Shown: piece by piece, positions 7,649 to 58,671 of the stretch
Position numbering within the stretch: the first letter of the stretch is position 1
How the letters are laid out: each line of letters starts with the position of its first letter
Virus record (IMG/VR): IMGVR_UViG_3300040801_001687
Coordinates: 1-64,000 of that record
Reading direction: 5' to 3' (one strand)
Origin: a virus
DNA: 64,000 nt
Translations under genes and position numbers: made by a program
The notes under the pieces: model-generated
Database searches by the model: none
What the model saw: only the letters and a program-made list of their open reading frames with translations
What the model was told of the DNA's origin: nothing

Positions 7649-8641
7649 ATGAGTATATTAGCAATATGTGGAGGTAACGGAGTATTAGCTCACCCCTTCA
7701 AGAAACACTTAATAGGGAATATAGAGCCTAGAACTGTATTTCATACTCCTGACCACATCCAATGGAGGCTTAATTTTAATATCCCGTTTGATAAAGACCC
7801 TTTAGTTAGGTTTCCAAAATCAGATGTAAGTATTATAGTGGGAGCACCGGATTGTGGCCACTCTTCCGTATTAGCTTATTCAAGAGCTAAAAAACTATCG
7901 GACCCCAAATTAAACACATCCTTAAGTTTATACCTTGAAAACGTTGACTATTATAGGCCTGAAATCTTTATGATGGAGAACTTACCTAAGCTTTTAGAAT
8001 CCGATAAAACTATTATACCTTTTTTTGAATCACTAGGTTATAGGGTATTTATTTATGAGGAACCCGTATCGGCTTGGGGAAATTCTCAAATAAATAGAAA
8101 AAGGCTTATAATAATTGGTATATCTAAAAACCTTAAAAACAAAAAGAAATATTTTAGGTTACCAAAAGAAAGGTACCTTAAGAGCTCTGGTGAACTTATA
8201 GAAGGTTTGGGTAAAGAAGAGATACCTGAATTATGTCATGTAAGGGAATTAGATGATTGGAGGCTTCCAATGTATTATGGTGATGAGAGAAATATAAGTG
8301 TTAAGCAGGCTAGAAATTTATGGAAGCAGTATGGTACTAGAAAATGGCCAGTACCTAATTCAAAAATGAATAATCAACCAGGGGTATATAGAAACCTAGA
8401 TTCTGATTACCCAATGACTGTAAGAAAACAATCTAGGCAATTCAGAGAGGATGGATACCTTCTTACACCAAGGGAAATGGCTAGAATTCAAGGTGTACCT
8501 GATAATTTTAAATTACACTTTGAAGAAGATAGAAGGCTTTACTTTATTAATAAAGCTAGAGCAACTGTAACAAAATGTCCACCTTATCAAATAGGTGAGT
8601 GGTTTAATAAATGTTTAATTAAAATGAATTATTATGGATAA
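7649..8641 (+). CDS. DNA cytosine-C5 methyltransferase-like protein
   Basis: 330 aa. Family motifs in order: an N-terminal cofactor loop (LAICGGNG, 4-11) in place of DxFxGxGG; motif IV with the nucleophilic Cys, GAPDCGHSS (65-73, Cys 69); motif VI ENLPKL (110-115); motif VIII QINRKR (147-152); and motifs IX/X LTPREMARIQGVPDNF (272-287). Such enzymes transfer a methyl group from S-adenosylmethionine to cytosine C5 in a specific site. The target-recognition part (about 160-260) is short. PDCGH replaces the usual PPCQ, a departure from the norm. It could protect phage DNA from host restriction. First gene of a rightward unit that continues into the endolysin gene. Confidence 0.8.
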   Translation: MSILAICGGNGVLAHPFKKHLIGNIEPRTVFHTPDHIQWRLNFNIPFDKDPLVRFPKSDVSIIVGAPDCGHSSVLAYSRAKKLSDPKLNTSLSLYLENVDYYRPEIFMMENLPKLLESDKTIIPFFESLGYRVFIYEEPVSAWGNSQINRKRLIIIGISKNLKNKKKYFRLPKERYLKSSGELIEGLGKEEIPELCHVRELDDWRLPMYYGDERNISVKQARNLWKQYGTRKWPVPNSKMNNQPGVYRNLDSDYPMTVRKQSRQFREDGYLLTPREMARIQGVPDNFKLHFEEDRRLYFINKARATVTKCPPYQIGEWFNKCLIKMNYYG

Positions 8642-48772: not shown

Positions 48773-49237
48773 ATGAAAAGAAAAGCGAGAGATAAAGAAG
48801 TAAAAAATAAACATGATGTTTCCAAACCTATATCTATTGATATATTCGGAACAGAGGACGACCCCTGTTTCGGAAAACACTATTCTGAAAAAGCAGATGA
48901 GTGTAGTATGTGTGGAGATTCAGAATTATGTTTTATAATCAAATCTCAAAAACAACACAAGGTTAGAGAGTTTGAAGAAGAAGAGGCTAATTTTAAAGAT
49001 TTGGAAGAGCCTTTCTTTAATCTAGTTAAGCTAGAGGAATATTTAATTAAGAAACTAAAACCGAATAACAAATTGTTAATTACTTCAGTTTACTCTAAAG
49101 TGAATAAAAGATTTAATAAATTGGGTCAAGTTTCAAAGAAAGAAGTTAAGTCTGCTGTATTAAAGGTAGTTAAGAACTCTAAAAAAATAGTACTTTACAA
49201 AAATAGAGGAGTTAGAAAAATAAAACTTAAACAATGA
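48773..49237 (+). CDS. Small zinc-motif protein (154 aa)
   Basis: Residues about 20-60 carry DPCFGKHYSEKADECSMCGD and SELCFI: Cys 33, 46, 49 and 54 or so form a zinc site. The DPCFG...CxxCGDSelC pattern recurs in other phage and plasmid replication regions. The C-terminal 60 residues are helical and basic (NKRFNKLGQVSKKEVKSAVLK) and could bind DNA. Lies among replication genes. Function unknown. Confidence 0.65.
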   Translation: MKRKARDKEVKNKHDVSKPISIDIFGTEDDPCFGKHYSEKADECSMCGDSELCFIIKSQKQHKVREFEEEEANFKDLEEPFFNLVKLEEYLIKKLKPNNKLLITSVYSKVNKRFNKLGQVSKKEVKSAVLKVVKNSKKIVLYKNRGVRKIKLKQ

Positions 49238-49929
49238 GAAAACAAGATTATTTTCAAAAAGGAGAGATTACTAATGCTATTATAGAGTTATCTAAAATAA
49301 GGGTATACCAAGAAGGTAACTTAAATAGTGAGCTACGGCTTATATTAGAGGCCTTTATAAAAAAGTCAGTAAAATTTAATAACACTTACCAAGAAGCTAT
49401 TGAATTTATTAATAGTGTTAATTTTCTTGAACTGGAGAATCAGGTTAAGGTATTTAATAAGATAAAACAATTAAACCTTCAATTTAAAGCTATTATTATA
49501 GATTTATTTTCAATATTCGGTTTAACTAATAAGAACTCTGATGATTTAATAATACCTATTAAAAAACACCTAGATGGTGCAGGTATAACTTCAACATTCT
49601 ACTTCCCAGGTGATGTATTAAAAACAATGATAACCTATATTAATTACATCCAACTAAATGATGAGAGGACTAGGTTACCCAAAACAAAATTATATAAATT
49701 TGATGTGGGGGATGAACCTTTCGGATTTACTAGGTTAAGTGAAGAGGTGTTAATGATAAATAATGGTTTGTTTTTAGAAATAATTCAATCAGTATACCTT
49801 ATGATTGATAAGGAGGAGCAAGTTGTTTATAAAGAGGATTTAACTGCTGACCTATTATTTAGAATTTCAGAATTTTTAAGCTTTAATGATTTTGATAATT
49901 TAAAACTTTATAACCTAATAAGGAAATGA
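49234..49929 (+). CDS. Hypothetical protein (231 aa)
   Basis: Not recognised. Helical, rich in Leu/Ile/Asn; contains a short beta region near 115-150. No nucleotide-binding loop or cysteine. Overlaps both neighbours by 4 bases, so it belongs to the transcript that includes the TS-fold enzymes, and it may support them, but this cannot be seen in the sequence. Confidence 0.6.
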   Translation: MRKQDYFQKGEITNAIIELSKIRVYQEGNLNSELRLILEAFIKKSVKFNNTYQEAIEFINSVNFLELENQVKVFNKIKQLNLQFKAIIIDLFSIFGLTNKNSDDLIIPIKKHLDGAGITSTFYFPGDVLKTMITYINYIQLNDERTRLPKTKLYKFDVGDEPFGFTRLSEEVLMINNGLFLEIIQSVYLMIDKEEQVVYKEDLTADLLFRISEFLSFNDFDNLKLYNLIRK

Positions 49930-50849
49930 ATAAAATTACAGACAGTGATTCAGGAATAGTAACCACATTAAAATACCCTAATCTACAAAAAGGTTGGGAG
50001 GGTATTAATGAATTTCTATTTTTAGAGGCTGATAGAATAGCTGAAAATTCAGGGGGAGTCCATGGACCAGAGATGGTATCCTATAATAATTTTGTAGTTA
50101 TGGATAAAGCTTGGGTAGACCCTGAGTTTAATTTCGGAAAGGTATTAGGGTATTCAATAGCTAAATGGTCAGCCTTAGTAAATAATTATGTAGACTTTTA
50201 TTACCTTGATTTATTAAGAGCTGAAATAAGCAGAAGAGTTAAATCAAAAGCAAGAGCCTATAACTATACTTACCACTTTGATAATAAACATGGGGGAGGT
50301 AAAGACTGCTTAGTTGCAATCACTTTTACAAAAAGGATGTTCTCAAGGCGACCAGTTGTAGTATTTCAAATAAGAACTTCTGAAGTAACTAAAAGGTTAC
50401 TCTTTGATTTCTTACTAGTACAGAGGATAACAGAGTATATTTATGGACATAATGATGTGGAAGTGCACTTTTTTGCTCCATCCTATTATGTTACACGGGA
50501 ATCATTTGTAATGTATAATAATGTAAAATCAATAAAGAAGCTTTACAAAAACCATATTAGGAAAAATGGTAAACCTTTACCTGATAATCAGAAGTTTCAA
50601 AAGAAAGTAAAAGAAACCTTTAAAGAATACATGAACCACCCTGACCCCATGAGTGTAATGTATAGAGTTAACAGACGCTCAATGATGCAAATCCAAAAGG
50701 ATGAAAATGGGGAACCTATATCAGGTGTTAAAGATTTATTTGCTAAGGATTTAAAACTTAGAGAAGAGAATGATAACTTACCTAAAGATGTAATATCACC
50801 ATCAAAGGTAAGGGGTTATAAAAGAATCCAAAAAAACAAAAAGAAATGA
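49926..50849 (+). CDS. Divergent thymidylate-synthase-fold protein 1
   Basis: 307 aa. The region about 125-200 aligns with the thymidylate synthase core: KDCLVAITF has the catalytic-type Cys 128; RTSEVTKRLLFDF (150-162) matches RSxDxxxGLPFNI, with Asp 161 where TS has the Asn that selects dUMP; and HFFAPSYYVTRES stands for the last strand. The N-terminal half is helical and lacks clear folate-site motifs, so it may be non-catalytic or act on another substrate. It overlaps the second TS-fold gene by 4 bases. The assignment is from motif alignment by eye. Confidence 0.65.
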   Translation: MNKITDSDSGIVTTLKYPNLQKGWEGINEFLFLEADRIAENSGGVHGPEMVSYNNFVVMDKAWVDPEFNFGKVLGYSIAKWSALVNNYVDFYYLDLLRAEISRRVKSKARAYNYTYHFDNKHGGGKDCLVAITFTKRMFSRRPVVVFQIRTSEVTKRLLFDFLLVQRITEYIYGHNDVEVHFFAPSYYVTRESFVMYNNVKSIKKLYKNHIRKNGKPLPDNQKFQKKVKETFKEYMNHPDPMSVMYRVNRRSMMQIQKDENGEPISGVKDLFAKDLKLREENDNLPKDVISPSKVRGYKRIQKNKKK

Positions 50850-51616
50850 ATACTATAATAAAAAACCAACAGAAACAACTATACCATGTTGGCCAAAAAT
50901 ACTCAGTAGAGAAATGGCAGGGGGTGGATTCACCTGATGATATGATTGAATTGTTAAACCAAAGGGTAGTTATAGATACTTCTTTATTGAAAAATAAGTT
51001 AGAAGAGGAAATAAAACCCCACTTACCTTGGGCTGAACTTCAATTCCAAGAAAGGGTATCGGGTAAACCCTTAAACCCCGGTGAATCTTATAAAGAATGG
51101 CCTTTTTATAAACACAAAAAAGAGGATGATAAATTTAGAAATACAGAAGAAGGCCAATTCAGTCACACCTATATGGAGAGGTTTTGGCCAAAGCAAGCCC
51201 CCATGTTTAATGGTAGAATTAATGCAGATATAAATATAGGTATAAGGTATGGATATGGGGACCTTGATGATTTAATTCAACTACTAATGGACCAACCCCA
51301 TACAAGGCAAGCTTTCTTACCTATCTGGTTTCCCGAAGATTTAAAGGCATCAAATTTAGGTGATAGAGTTCCATGTTCATTGGGTTATGATTTCATTATA
51401 AGAAACAATAGACTTCACATGGTTTATTATATGAGGTCATGCGATGCCCTTAGACATTTTAGAGATGATATTTATATAGCCATTAGGTTGATGCAATGGG
51501 TATGCCAAGAGTTAAATATGTTACATGACATAGATACTGGGATGTTCACTATGTATATTAAGAATTTCCACTGTTTCTATAAAGAAAGAGAAAGTTTACT
51601 ATCAGATAAATTTTAA
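50846..51616 (+). CDS. Thymidylate synthase family enzyme, probable dCMP-type
   Basis: 256 aa. TRQAFLPIWFPEDL (153-166), VPCSLGYDF with catalytic Cys 177, YYMRSCDALRHFRDDIYIA (194-212) and TMYIKNFHCFYKE (235-247) reproduce the TS signature. Asp 208 replaces the Asn (E. coli Asn 177) that binds the dUMP base; Asp at this point marks dCMP-using enzymes such as T4 dCMP hydroxymethylase. Products could be 5-hydroxymethyl-dCMP or 5-methyl-dCMP. Shares the transcript with its paralogue and a dCMP deaminase. Confidence 0.78.
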   Translation: MNTIIKNQQKQLYHVGQKYSVEKWQGVDSPDDMIELLNQRVVIDTSLLKNKLEEEIKPHLPWAELQFQERVSGKPLNPGESYKEWPFYKHKKEDDKFRNTEEGQFSHTYMERFWPKQAPMFNGRINADINIGIRYGYGDLDDLIQLLMDQPHTRQAFLPIWFPEDLKASNLGDRVPCSLGYDFIIRNNRLHMVYYMRSCDALRHFRDDIYIAIRLMQWVCQELNMLHDIDTGMFTMYIKNFHCFYKERESLLSDKF

Positions 51617-51641: not shown

Positions 51642-52082
51642 ATGGAAAGGATTAATAGAAACGAACTTAATTTAAGAATTGCCTACCTTATATCCCAAAG
51701 AGCTACTTGTCAAAGGTTGGGGGTGGGAGCAATAATCACTAGGGATAATCGAATAGTTGCAACGGGTTATAATGGACCGGTTAAAGGTTCTCCTCATTGC
51801 TCTATACTGGGATGTGATACTTCGGAACACTGCCAACATGCAGTTCATGCAGAAGCTAATGCAATTTATTTTGCAGCAAGGTATGGAGTATCACTTGAGG
51901 GGTGTACTTTATATGTAACCCATTCCCCTTGTAGAAAATGTGCAGAGGCTATAGTAAATGCAGGCATAGACTCAGTTATATATGATATACAATTTAGGGA
52001 CACCTCTTCACTTAAATTTTTAACAAGTAATGGGGTAGGAGTTTCACAACATATACTAAATAATAATGAAGAAAAGTTATAA
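51642..52082 (+). CDS. dCMP deaminase
   Basis: 146 aa. Zinc motifs HAE (69-71) and PCRKC (96-100) with a Gly/Asn-rich start ATGYNGPVKGSPHC (40-53). Converts dCMP to dUMP, feeding dTTP synthesis; T4-type enzymes are regulated by dCTP and dTTP. Additional Cys/His (CSILGCDTSEHC) fit the second zinc site of phage-type deaminases. The 17-base overlap with the polymerase gene shows tight coupling. Confidence 0.9.
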   Translation: MERINRNELNLRIAYLISQRATCQRLGVGAIITRDNRIVATGYNGPVKGSPHCSILGCDTSEHCQHAVHAEANAIYFAARYGVSLEGCTLYVTHSPCRKCAEAIVNAGIDSVIYDIQFRDTSSLKFLTSNGVGVSQHILNNNEEKL

Positions 52083-54294
52083 GATAGTTACAACTTTTGC
52101 TGAAATAGAAAATGTAATCAAATGGTGTCAGGAAACTAGATACTGTTCCTTTGATTATGAGACTAGAGCTCATGGACCTTTAGGACCTTCTTATAAAGGA
52201 AAGAATTCAGACAATCCCGCAGGGCCCCAATTTAAAGAAGATAAACCTACAATCCTAGGTATATCTTTTCAAATTGGGTTTGCTTATGTAATACCCCTAT
52301 TTCATTTAGAGTCACCTTTTTCTAATAGAGAGGTATTAAAGATATTCACGATGTTATCTCAAGGTATATTTGAGAATAAAGAAATAATTAAGATAGCCCA
52401 TAACTTTAAATTTGAATACAAATGGTCTACAAGATATGGTTGTAAATTCAATGGTAGAATATTTGATACCATGCTTGCTAAATATTTATTAGATGAGGAA
52501 AGACCACATGGTCTAAAAGATTTAGTAGCTCTTAAATTTCCAGAGTATGCCGAATACGATGATGAGGTAGAGGAATGCGTAAAGAAAGGTGGGGGTTGGC
52601 ATTCAGTTCCTTTAGATACTCTTTCTGAATACTGTGCATTAGATTGCGATATGACCTTAAGGCTAATGATTATACTTGAGGAGAAGCTAATGGATATGGG
52701 TTTTTATTTATTATTTAGAAACATGACTATGATGCAGACCAGGGTATTGGCTGAATCAGAAATTCAGGGTTTTATAATTGATAAGGATTACTTATATGAT
52801 TTGGAAGAGAAAGAGGCTAAGAAGATTGAGGAAACCGAAGAAGCTTTACAAGGGCATAAGAAAATTAGAAAATTCTTAAAACAAAGAAAGAAAGACCACA
52901 TTAAAAAATTAATAGAGAATACTCAAGATGAGATTAGAAAGATAAGGTCAGGGGAAATTGAGTATGCTAATATAGATAGAGCAATACAAAATAGGGAGGA
53001 GAAGGTTAGTAGATACCTAGCAGGAGAGCTAGTGACCAATAAAGAGAAAATTGAAGATAGAGTTAACTTTAATTCTACTCCTCAACTACGAGAGTTATTA
53101 TTTACATCTAAAGCAGGTTTTAAATTTGGTATAGTAAAATATACTTTAGATAAAAAGAAACAACCTACTGAAAACCCTTCAACTGATGAAGATGTATTAT
53201 TAGAACTTGAACTTAAAGATAAGTCGGGTTTTATATCTAACCTTTTAAAGCTTAGGGGTTTAAATAAGATTTATTCTACCTATATAAAAGGGCCAATGAA
53301 AAGGATAAACCATAAAGGTAGACTAAATACTGACTACCTTATACATGGAACGGTAACAGGAAGGCTATCATCAAAGAATCCAAATTTACAAAACATTCCA
53401 AGAGGTACAACTTCTAATATAATCAAAAGGATGTTTATTCCACCTAAAGACCACCTTATTTTAGAAGTCGACTATGGACAGGCAGAATTAAGGGTAGTGG
53501 CTGAAATATCAAATGATAAAACCATGATTGAATTATTTGATAAAGGCTATAATATTCACGTTGCTACTGCTTGTAAAGCTAATGATTGTATAGAAGATTA
53601 TGACCATATAAAGAAGGTTGTACTAAAAGATGAAAACCATCCTGACAATTTATTTTGGACCAAACAAAAGAAAAGGGCTAAGGTTATTAATTTTGGTATT
53701 ATCTATGGACAGACACCTAAAATGCTTGCTGAATCACTATCATTACCTGGGGACCCGGTAACGGAAGAAGAGGCTAGACAATTTAGAGAGGAATGGTTGA
53801 ACTTATACCCAGGTGTTAAGAGATGGTTTAAGAAACAAGAAAGGTTTTTAAAGAAACATGGATACGTTAAAAATATATTTGGAAGAAAGAGAAGGCTTCC
53901 AGGTATATGGGATTCTCAAATAGGAGTACAGAATAAGGCTATAAGGGATTGTATTAATGCTCCTATTCAGGGGGCTTCATCTGATATGACCCAATTCTCA
54001 TCTGTAGTTATAAGGGAGCAGGTTATAAAGAATGAAATTATAATGAGTGATTATGCTGAATTTAGAAACCAATTATACACAGTACATGATTCACTAGGTT
54101 TTTACATACAACCTAAATATATACATACTGTAGTTCCCCAATTAAAGGCAATATGTGAGAATCCACAAACCCAAAAATACTTTGGATTTCAAATGAAAAA
54201 AGTAAGAATGAAAGTATCAGCGGAGATAGGATTAAATTGGGGAGAATTAAAGGACTACAATAAGGAAGAAGATTACCAAAAATGGATTAGTTAA
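52066..54294 (+). CDS. DNA polymerase, family A
   Basis: 742 aa. 3'-5' exonuclease: Asp 30/Glu 32 (FDYET), HNFKFEYKW (about 111-119) and YCALDCDMT (about 188-196). Polymerase: motif A EVDYGQAELR (about 466-475), motif B KRAKVINFGIIYG (about 534-546) and motif C VHDS (about 671-674). Proofreading is therefore expected to be active. Residues 245-300 form a charged coiled insertion. The replicative polymerase of the phage; T4-type phages use family B, so this is a different replisome core with a T4-like recombination set. Confidence 0.93.
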   Translation: MKKSYKIVTTFAEIENVIKWCQETRYCSFDYETRAHGPLGPSYKGKNSDNPAGPQFKEDKPTILGISFQIGFAYVIPLFHLESPFSNREVLKIFTMLSQGIFENKEIIKIAHNFKFEYKWSTRYGCKFNGRIFDTMLAKYLLDEERPHGLKDLVALKFPEYAEYDDEVEECVKKGGGWHSVPLDTLSEYCALDCDMTLRLMIILEEKLMDMGFYLLFRNMTMMQTRVLAESEIQGFIIDKDYLYDLEEKEAKKIEETEEALQGHKKIRKFLKQRKKDHIKKLIENTQDEIRKIRSGEIEYANIDRAIQNREEKVSRYLAGELVTNKEKIEDRVNFNSTPQLRELLFTSKAGFKFGIVKYTLDKKKQPTENPSTDEDVLLELELKDKSGFISNLLKLRGLNKIYSTYIKGPMKRINHKGRLNTDYLIHGTVTGRLSSKNPNLQNIPRGTTSNIIKRMFIPPKDHLILEVDYGQAELRVVAEISNDKTMIELFDKGYNIHVATACKANDCIEDYDHIKKVVLKDENHPDNLFWTKQKKRAKVINFGIIYGQTPKMLAESLSLPGDPVTEEEARQFREEWLNLYPGVKRWFKKQERFLKKHGYVKNIFGRKRRLPGIWDSQIGVQNKAIRDCINAPIQGASSDMTQFSSVVIREQVIKNEIIMSDYAEFRNQLYTVHDSLGFYIQPKYIHTVVPQLKAICENPQTQKYFGFQMKKVRMKVSAEIGLNWGELKDYNKEEDYQKWIS

Positions 54295-54312: not shown

Positions 54313-54924
54313 ATGAAAATTGCATTTACAGGGAGTTCAGGCTCAGGAAAGACTACACTTGCTACTTGGTTAGCAGAGGAGAAAGATTTAACATTTATAC
54401 CAGGTTCATCAGGTGGATTGAAAACTGATGAGGATAGAAAGTTTTTAAAAGAAAATTTTGGATTTGAAGGGGGTAAAGGCCATGCAAATGTTATACAACA
54501 ATCTCATATTAACCCCGAATTGGGTTACTATATCCAATCTACAGTACGTAGAAGAAGGGCTGAATTAATTAGAAACAACGATGATTTTGTAACTGACAGA
54601 AGCCCTTTAGATAATTGGGTATACTTTATATTACAAGCATCTACTTATCAGAGCCAAGAGAATTGTAATAACTTTCTTGTAAAGGTTACAGAGATGTTTA
54701 AAGATTTGGATGCAGTTATATATGTACCTTCAATGTTTTCTAATATTGAAAACAACGGTTCAAGAGTTTCCAATGTATATTTTCAACAAGCAGTAGATGC
54801 TTATTTTGAATTATGCTTTAGAAATTTCCAAAGAAGTTTAGCTGCTGACTATGGTACTAAATTTTTAAGGATTCCTATGGTAGACCTTCAGTTAAGAAAG
54901 GATTATATCATTAATAACCTTTAA
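54313..54924 (+). CDS. P-loop deoxynucleotide or nucleoside kinase
   Basis: 203 aa. GSSGSGKTT (7-15) is a P-loop. A DRS motif (TDRSPLDN, about 97-104) and an Arg-rich lid region (STVRRRRAEL) follow. These match dNMP/deoxynucleoside kinase-type enzymes and phage AAA_28-like kinases. By place beside TS-fold, deaminase and polymerase genes it probably phosphorylates deoxynucleotides, possibly a modified dCMP. Substrate not deducible. Confidence 0.7.
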   Translation: MKIAFTGSSGSGKTTLATWLAEEKDLTFIPGSSGGLKTDEDRKFLKENFGFEGGKGHANVIQQSHINPELGYYIQSTVRRRRAELIRNNDDFVTDRSPLDNWVYFILQASTYQSQENCNNFLVKVTEMFKDLDAVIYVPSMFSNIENNGSRVSNVYFQQAVDAYFELCFRNFQRSLAADYGTKFLRIPMVDLQLRKDYIINNL

Positions 54925-58179: not shown

Positions 58180-58671
58180 ATGGGTAAAAAATATAAAAAA
58201 TTCAATCCAGTAAAAAAGGTAGCAGAGTTTCATAAGGTATCAGGTAATTCAATATTACCTAAACCAGAAATTCCTAAAGCCGAAAGGTTAAAACTAAGAG
58301 TAATACTTATTCAGGAGGAACTGGATGAATTAAAGGAGGCTATAGAACAAAACGATTTTGTTGAGATGGCTGATGCTCTTACAGATATTCTTTATGTAAC
58401 TATAGGTTCTTTCTTAGAGTTAGGGTTAGGGAAGATAACCCATAAGTTATTTAAAGAAGTTCATAGGTCTAATATGACTAAATTTTGTGATACTGAAGAA
58501 CAAGCAAAGGCTCAGGTTAATTGGTATATGCAGAATAAAGGTATAGTTGCTGACTACTATGAGAAAGGGGGTAAGTGGATTCTATTTAACACTGCCACTG
58601 AAAAAACAATAAAGAGGCGGGACTATTCACGACCTGATTTAAAATCAATAATTCAAAAGGCCTCTAAATAA
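58180..58671 (+). CDS. MazG-like nucleotide pyrophosphohydrolase
   Basis: 163 aa. The helical core QEELDELKEAIEQ (about 47-59) and EMADALTDILYV (about 64-75) gives the EExxE...ExxD metal-binding pattern of all-alpha NTP pyrophosphatases. Phage versions hydrolyse dNTPs or (p)ppGpp-related alarmones. The stop lies inside the hairpin at 58660, so translation and termination overlap. Confidence 0.82.
   Translation: MGKKYKKFNPVKKVAEFHKVSGNSILPKPEIPKAERLKLRVILIQEELDELKEAIEQNDFVEMADALTDILYVTIGSFLELGLGKITHKLFKEVHRSNMTKFCDTEEQAKAQVNWYMQNKGIVADYYEKGGKWILFNTATEKTIKRRDYSRPDLKSIIQKASK

Follow-up and report, generated by a model that had tools for sequence, protein, structure and literature searches.

Two adjacent genes of a phage encode proteins with the thymidylate synthase (TS) fold, here called P1 and P2 (Table 1). 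Both lie in the window, i.e., the whole 64,000-nucleotide stretch of IMG/VR record IMGVR_UViG_3300040801_001687 that was analyzed. P2 is a dCMP-type TS relative, and P1 belongs to a second TS-fold family, unrecognizable by sequence, that accompanies such enzymes in more than 100 sequenced phages and many metagenomic ones. We propose that P1 and P2 constitute a two-component TS-superfamily system making a C5-modified dCMP before DNA synthesis, a reading of the sequences to which we give about an even chance. Within it, the role of P2 as a putative dCMP modifier is well supported by homology. P2 probably resembles 5-hydroxymethylases of the folate type, and P1 is best read as a diverged TS-fold protein that serves either as a partner of P2 or as the enzyme of a second step. 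To our knowledge, TS-superfamily enzymes have been described as single-gene homodimers, and the side-by-side pair suggests an unrecognized two-part machine for modified DNA building blocks.

The tandem arrangement with a 4-base overlap that had been read from the DNA was borne out when the coordinates and frames of both open reading frames (ORFs) were verified. The two Asp residues singled out in the original prediction are also where it had placed them: Asp208 of P2 is the last residue of RSCDALRHFRDD and occupies the position of Asn177 in Escherichia coli TS, and Asp161 of P1 is the last residue of RTSEVTKRLLFD and aligns to Asp208 of P2. Upstream, a 231-amino-acid (aa) ORF (window positions 49234 to 49929) has a 4-base overlap with the start of P1 and no Pfam or PHROG match.

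Table 1. Features of the P1/P2 locus, with window coordinates and, for single codons, conservation among relatives
Feature	Position	Strand	Description
P1	49926..50849	+	307 aa; divergent TS-fold protein; alpha subfamily of a new family that takes in both PHROG_34294 and PHROG_13667
P1 Tyr88 codon	50187..50189	+	166/166
P1 Cys128 codon	50307..50309	+	Aligned to TS nucleophile Cys146 and P2 Cys177; 166/166
P1 Arg150 codon	50373..50375	+	Aligned to TS Arg166 and P2 Arg197; 166/166
P1 Asp161 codon	50406..50408	+	Aligned to TS Asn177, P2 Asp208, and T4 Asp179; 166/166
P2	50846..51616	+	256 aa; TS-superfamily enzyme whose base-reading residue is Asp; TS C-terminal tail absent
P2 Arg154 codon	51305..51307	+	Aligned to trans phosphate-binding Arg126 of TS; 117/117
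P2 Arg174 codon	51365..51367	+	Three before Cys177, at the position of Asp145 in T4 dCMP hydroxymethylase; 116/117
P2 Cys177 codon	51374..51376	+	TS nucleophile; 116/117
P2 Asp200 codon	51443..51445	+	Aligned to pterin-binding Asp169 of TS; 116/117
P2 Asp208 codon	51467..51469	+	Asn177 position; Asp in 116/117
dCMP deaminase	51642..52082	+	PF00383, 5e-24; PHROG_174, 5.6e-50
Family A DNA polymerase (PolA)	52066..54294	+	PF00476, 9.6e-81
Probable dNMP kinase	54313..54924	+	PHROG_2107 thymidylate kinase, 5e-12; AAA_28
Nucleotide pyrophosphohydrolase (PRA-PH/MazG type), candidate dCTPase	58180..58671	+	PF01503, 9e-16; PHROG_671, 1e-28

P2 matched PF00303 (E = 4.7e-9; 36.2 bits against a cutoff of 24.3) and PHROG_160, annotated as thymidylate synthase (3.6e-29). 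Foldseek returned 396 matches at an E value of ≤0.001, with AfhB (9iqu) the best (E = 1.8e-13) and many TS structures scoring nearly as high. By sequence, the best PDB match of the P2 family profile was 1njc, the N229D mutant of L. casei TS with bound dCMP, and that of the single P2 sequence was MilA. Like ThyA, P2 combines the TS fold with the catalytic Cys and counterparts of Arg166, the pterin Asp, and His207; Arg197 and His242 are also kept among the 117 relatives, and Gln155 stands at the Arg127 position. In contrast to ThyA, and to canonical dTMP-forming TS as characterized by Asn177 plus the C-terminal tail, P2 lacks Asn177, His147, and that tail: the chains of the P2 family end about 10 to 40 residues past His242, and nearly all P2s checked carry Ser or Thr at position 178, which corresponds to His147 of E. 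coli TS. Asp at position 177 has been linked independently to contigs with modified cytosine, and position 147 ranks at the top together with 177 (PMC8670742).

These features bear on the most conventional explanation, namely, that the pair is an ordinary dTMP module in which P2 is a TS and P1 is unrelated, which we regard as highly improbable. Databases do name P2 relatives thymidylate synthase, and such relatives lie near dUTPase, kinase, and deaminase genes. However, Asp rather than Asn occupies position 177 in all but one of the P2s, the TS tail is missing, and P1 has the TS fold. Moreover, a gut phage (L043:2667-6349) carries four consecutive TS-fold genes (P1, a canonical ThyA of the His147/Asn177 type, P1, and P2), and P2 is therefore not needed there for dTMP. 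On the strength of Asp177, the absent tail, and this ThyA neighbor, P2 was ruled out as an ordinary TS.

The comparison with dCMP-modifying enzymes is less uniform. T4 dCMP hydroxymethylase (gp42) shares with P2 the TS fold, the nucleophilic Cys, Asp in place of Asn177, and the absence of the TS C-terminal tail, with T4 Cys148 and Asp179 represented in P2 by Cys177 and Asp208. The T4 signature includes Asp145 three residues before the Cys and Ser94 two before Tyr96 (PMC6400193); P2 has neither the Asp/Glu nor the Ser/Thr that such a signature calls for but Arg174 and His107, respectively. Unlike P2, which is accompanied by the second TS-fold gene P1, gp42 is the product of one gene; it forms a homodimer with Arg123/Arg124 where P2 has Arg-Gln. 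With Arg174 in place of Asp145, P2 was not accepted as a T4-type hydroxymethylase by signature.

AfhB and the nearly identical RB69 5-hydroxy-dCMP synthase (9iqu and 9iqc) resemble the pair in belonging to the TS superfamily and in using dCMP. P2, with or without P1, could accordingly be a flavin-dependent 5-hydroxy-dCMP synthase of this kind instead of a folate enzyme; AfhB is its best Foldseek match, so that the reaction may be a 5-hydroxylation, and the Mosigvirus 5-hodCMP synthase is itself a TS-superfamily member (PMC13390438). We nevertheless consider this quite unlikely, since many TS structures match almost equally well and since these single-gene enzymes replace the pterin Asp with Asn and carry Glu three residues before the Cys, at sites where P2 has Asp200 and Arg174, although that Asn and Glu are features of the enzymes rather than proven determinants. 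With Arg174/His107 set against T4 and Asp200/Arg174 set against RB69, P2 thus matches neither enzyme at these sites.

P1, by contrast with P2, matched nothing above the cutoff in Pfam, PF00303 included, and nothing in NCBIfam or, by sequence, in the PDB; its sole family match in the PHROG search was PHROG_34294, of unknown function. Its AF2 model, built from 38 natural sequences (pLDDT 90.6; pTM 0.87), adopts the TS fold, and the nearest PDB structures are CMP/dCMP hydroxymethylases. The top match was the CMP hydroxymethylase MilA (E = 7e-5); the flavin dCMP hydroxylase AfhB, 9iqu, ranked third (2e-4; TMt 0.55), and T4 gp42 was also matched (4.5e-4), each with a probability of 1.00. MilA (5jnh and 5b6d) likewise has an Asp for cytosine (Asp186) but differs from the pair in being a one-gene ribonucleotide enzyme of antibiotic synthesis with Asp three residues before the Cys. 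TM-scores against TS-superfamily structures were modest (about 0.4 to 0.55 by target length among the top PDB matches), indicating that P1, as modeled, is a divergent member of the superfamily. Among viral predicted structures (BFVD), two uncharacterized proteins and a hypothetical protein of phage PMBT14 ranked first, followed by TS and dCMP hydroxymethylases.

Profile evidence also connects the two proteins. Profile-profile alignment of P1 with P2 gave P values of 3e-4 to 7e-4, compared with 0.05 to 0.79 for 12 neighboring gene families used as controls, and brought Cys128/Cys177, Arg150/Arg197, and Asp161/Asp208 into register. Searched against 1,013 ORFs, a P1 profile made from the alpha and beta subfamilies only recovered all 66 gamma ORFs and found three P2 proteins at an E value of <0.01, with the best unrelated ORF at an E of 4. 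The TS fold claimed for both proteins in the original prediction is therefore upheld, for P2 by the Pfam, PHROG, and Foldseek matches and for P1 by the model and profiles; fold, profile, and residue evidence together rule out P1 as a non-TS protein.

The P1 relatives collected (n = 166) come from IMG/VR, from contigs of GTDB, and from phage records and fall into three subfamilies: alpha, including the window P1 and gut phages with two P1 copies (L001 to L003); beta, from phages of Serratia, Pseudomonas, Brevundimonas, and Yersinia; and gamma, from phages of Gordonia, Mycobacterium, Streptomyces, and others. The beta and gamma subfamilies rule out a restriction of P1 to the window lineage. Homologues of P1 are nearly always annotated as hypothetical proteins. 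The name “pyrimidine hmase synthase” already given to those in PP693299 and MW202455 looks like an automatic label, and for the homologous PHROG_34294 and PHROG_13667, neither a function nor pairing with P2 is recorded.

Only four P1 columns are invariant (Tyr88, Cys128, Arg150, and Asp161); Tyr88 is a possible counterpart of E. coli Tyr94 or Glu58, and position 80 is Lys or Arg in every relative. Outside the Cys, Arg, and Asp, the ThyA pocket is mostly lost. The pterin Asp is not kept (Glu, Tyr, or Asp at position 153), and the family has no conserved counterparts of the sugar-binding His207/Tyr209. Arg110 of the window P1 precedes the pre-Cys strand, but its position is not conserved across P1s, leaving the family without a conserved counterpart of trans Arg126/127. 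Asp161 in every P1 together with Asp208 in 116 of 117 P2s is more than chance.

P1 has lost the residues for the sugar and the pterin as well as the trans arginines, which may suggest that it is a catalytically dead subunit, either sensing nucleotides or acting as a scaffold, with the task of regulating P2 or anchoring it to the replisome or a nucleotide synthesis complex. A variable C-terminal extension, occasional duplication of P1, and the one-way dependence described below fit such a role. It is somewhat unlikely in our estimation, as the nucleophilic Cys is present in all 166 P1s, although pseudoenzymes tend to lose such a residue. Conservation points away from the earlier suggestion that one subunit of a heteromer is catalytic, with Cys, Arg, and Asp kept in both P1 and P2.

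The two genes are linked. Wherever both were placed (164 loci), P2 is the downstream gene, and a P2 also follows P1 at every complete P1 locus checked, including those of Gordonia, Mycobacterium (Muddy), Serratia, and Pseudomonas phages. By approximate gaps (start sites were assigned mechanically), the ORFs overlap in 65 of the 164 loci, by exactly 4 bases in 46 of these, and lie more than 60 bases apart in 82. An annotated phage collection held 106 P1 records (85 gamma, 18 beta, and 3 alpha) and 106 P2 records, and the two sets of counts match exactly for each genus, a comparison made genus by genus rather than record by record. Distances among P1s track those among P2s (Mantel r = 0.59; permuted maximum, 0.05). 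About ten contigs from three or four P2 clusters, which may be fragments, carry P2 but not P1, while no secure P1 without P2 was found, lone P1s being confined to the vicinity of contig ends or a 9-kb fragment. Dependence therefore looks one-way, of P1 on P2 and not the reverse, and strict mutual dependence is ruled out by the P2-only contigs. No natural P1-P2 fusion was found in the survey of pair loci. Some loci depart from the simple pair: at L132:1492-3759, P1 precedes two P2-like genes, of which the first encodes Asn at position 208, and a second P1-family ORF lies 3' of P2 at L104:4742-5482, L127:4074-4871, and L134:4029-4562.

The pair is thus a widespread, mostly unannotated module, present in the cultured phages Muddy (where the P1 homologue is gene 47), Azira, PMBT14, and Serbin, and is not unique to the window phage. 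This qualifies the earlier remark that no tandem pair of this kind had been described: no described pair or two-component TS was found in the literature searched, which is no proof because subscription papers and preprints were mostly outside it, but the arrangement itself extends far beyond this phage.

Replacement of dCTP in T4 uses gp1, gp56, gp42, and cd, and gp42, like the P1/P2 locus, acts with kinase, dCTPase, and deaminase genes. The dCMP deaminase, dNMP kinase, pyrophosphohydrolase, and PolA genes found near the pair fit this logic by analogy and would suit the making of a modified dCMP before incorporation, as originally proposed. In distant phages (Serbin, PMBT14, Zuko, and Azira), a similar order recurs: kinase, pyrophosphohydrolase or dUTPase, P1, P2, dCMP deaminase, and PolA. 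In contigs that had been selected for modified cytosine, PF01503, PF00383, and PF14437 are found together with TS (PMC8670742). Counting against the proposed system, no sugar transferase was recognized in the ORFs scanned.

In the two-component system that we propose, Cys177 of P2 would attack C6 of dCMP and Asp208 would read the cytosine and protonate N3, with the phosphate held by Arg197 and the trans Arg154. Because the pterin Asp200 is kept, the one-carbon donor would be methylene-tetrahydrofolate, and because the TS C-terminal tail is missing, transfer of a hydroxymethyl rather than a methyl group would be expected; since Arg174 occupies the T4 Asp145 position, the product may be other than 5-hm-dCMP. 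P1 would still form a Cys adduct and read cytosine via Cys128, Arg150, Asp161, and Tyr88. Lacking a conserved trans arginine and the sugar-binding His/Tyr, it most likely works together with P2, either as a heteromer in which Arg154 of P2 would complete the P1 site or by acting on the product of P2. Such a loan of Arg154 would explain both the lost arginines of P1 and the one-way dependence, yet neighbors whose adjacency is conserved need not bind one another. The kinase would convert the modified dCMP into its triphosphate for incorporation by PolA, and dCTP and dCMP would be drained by the pyrophosphohydrolase and deaminase. If a new DNA base is made in this way, it would bear on the resistance of phage DNA to host nucleases.

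Alternatively, P1 could be a separate, cofactor-poor second-step enzyme that re-forms a Cys-C6 adduct on the P2 product (e.g., 5-hm-dCMP) and expels the hydroxyl as water, giving an exocyclic methylene to which another nucleophile adds, so that a hypermodified dCMP results. The residues that covalent catalysis on cytosine calls for (Tyr, Cys, Arg, and Asp) are just those that P1 retains; it has not kept the pterin Asp, and it depends on P2 and not the reverse. We rate this as unlikely, however, as we know of no TS-fold enzyme that carries out such a reaction. We also speculate, again as an unlikely reading, that an active P1 exchanges the C5 substituent on the nucleotide of P2 by folate-free Cys-C6 catalysis, with the trans arginine of P2 completing its site; many phages, mycobacteriophage Muddy among them, would then have an undescribed modified dCMP in their DNA.

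Elsewhere in the window, a homologue of C5-cytosine DNA methylases is encoded at positions 7649 to 8641 on the plus strand (PF00145; 9.7e-21). Its motif IV is atypical, reading GAPDCGHSS in place of G-x-P-C-Q (a host C5 methylase used for comparison has GGVPCPP). The P[DE]CG motif is also found in other P1/P2 phages and in P2 phages without P1 (L205, L207, L210, and L212 to L214). A C5 methylase homologue sits oddly with a genome in which all cytosine is already C5 substituted, and from its motif, the substrate of this protein may be an already C5-substituted cytosine. In a further contig (L105:278-2581), a P2 gene without P1 lies next to a gene for a 768-aa protein in which a PECG-type C5 methylase-like domain is fused to an NPPY-type methylase. 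A protein consisting mostly of Asp-Glu repeats with a Lys-rich tail is encoded at L048:4098-4571 (genome C1, 65097 to 65570).
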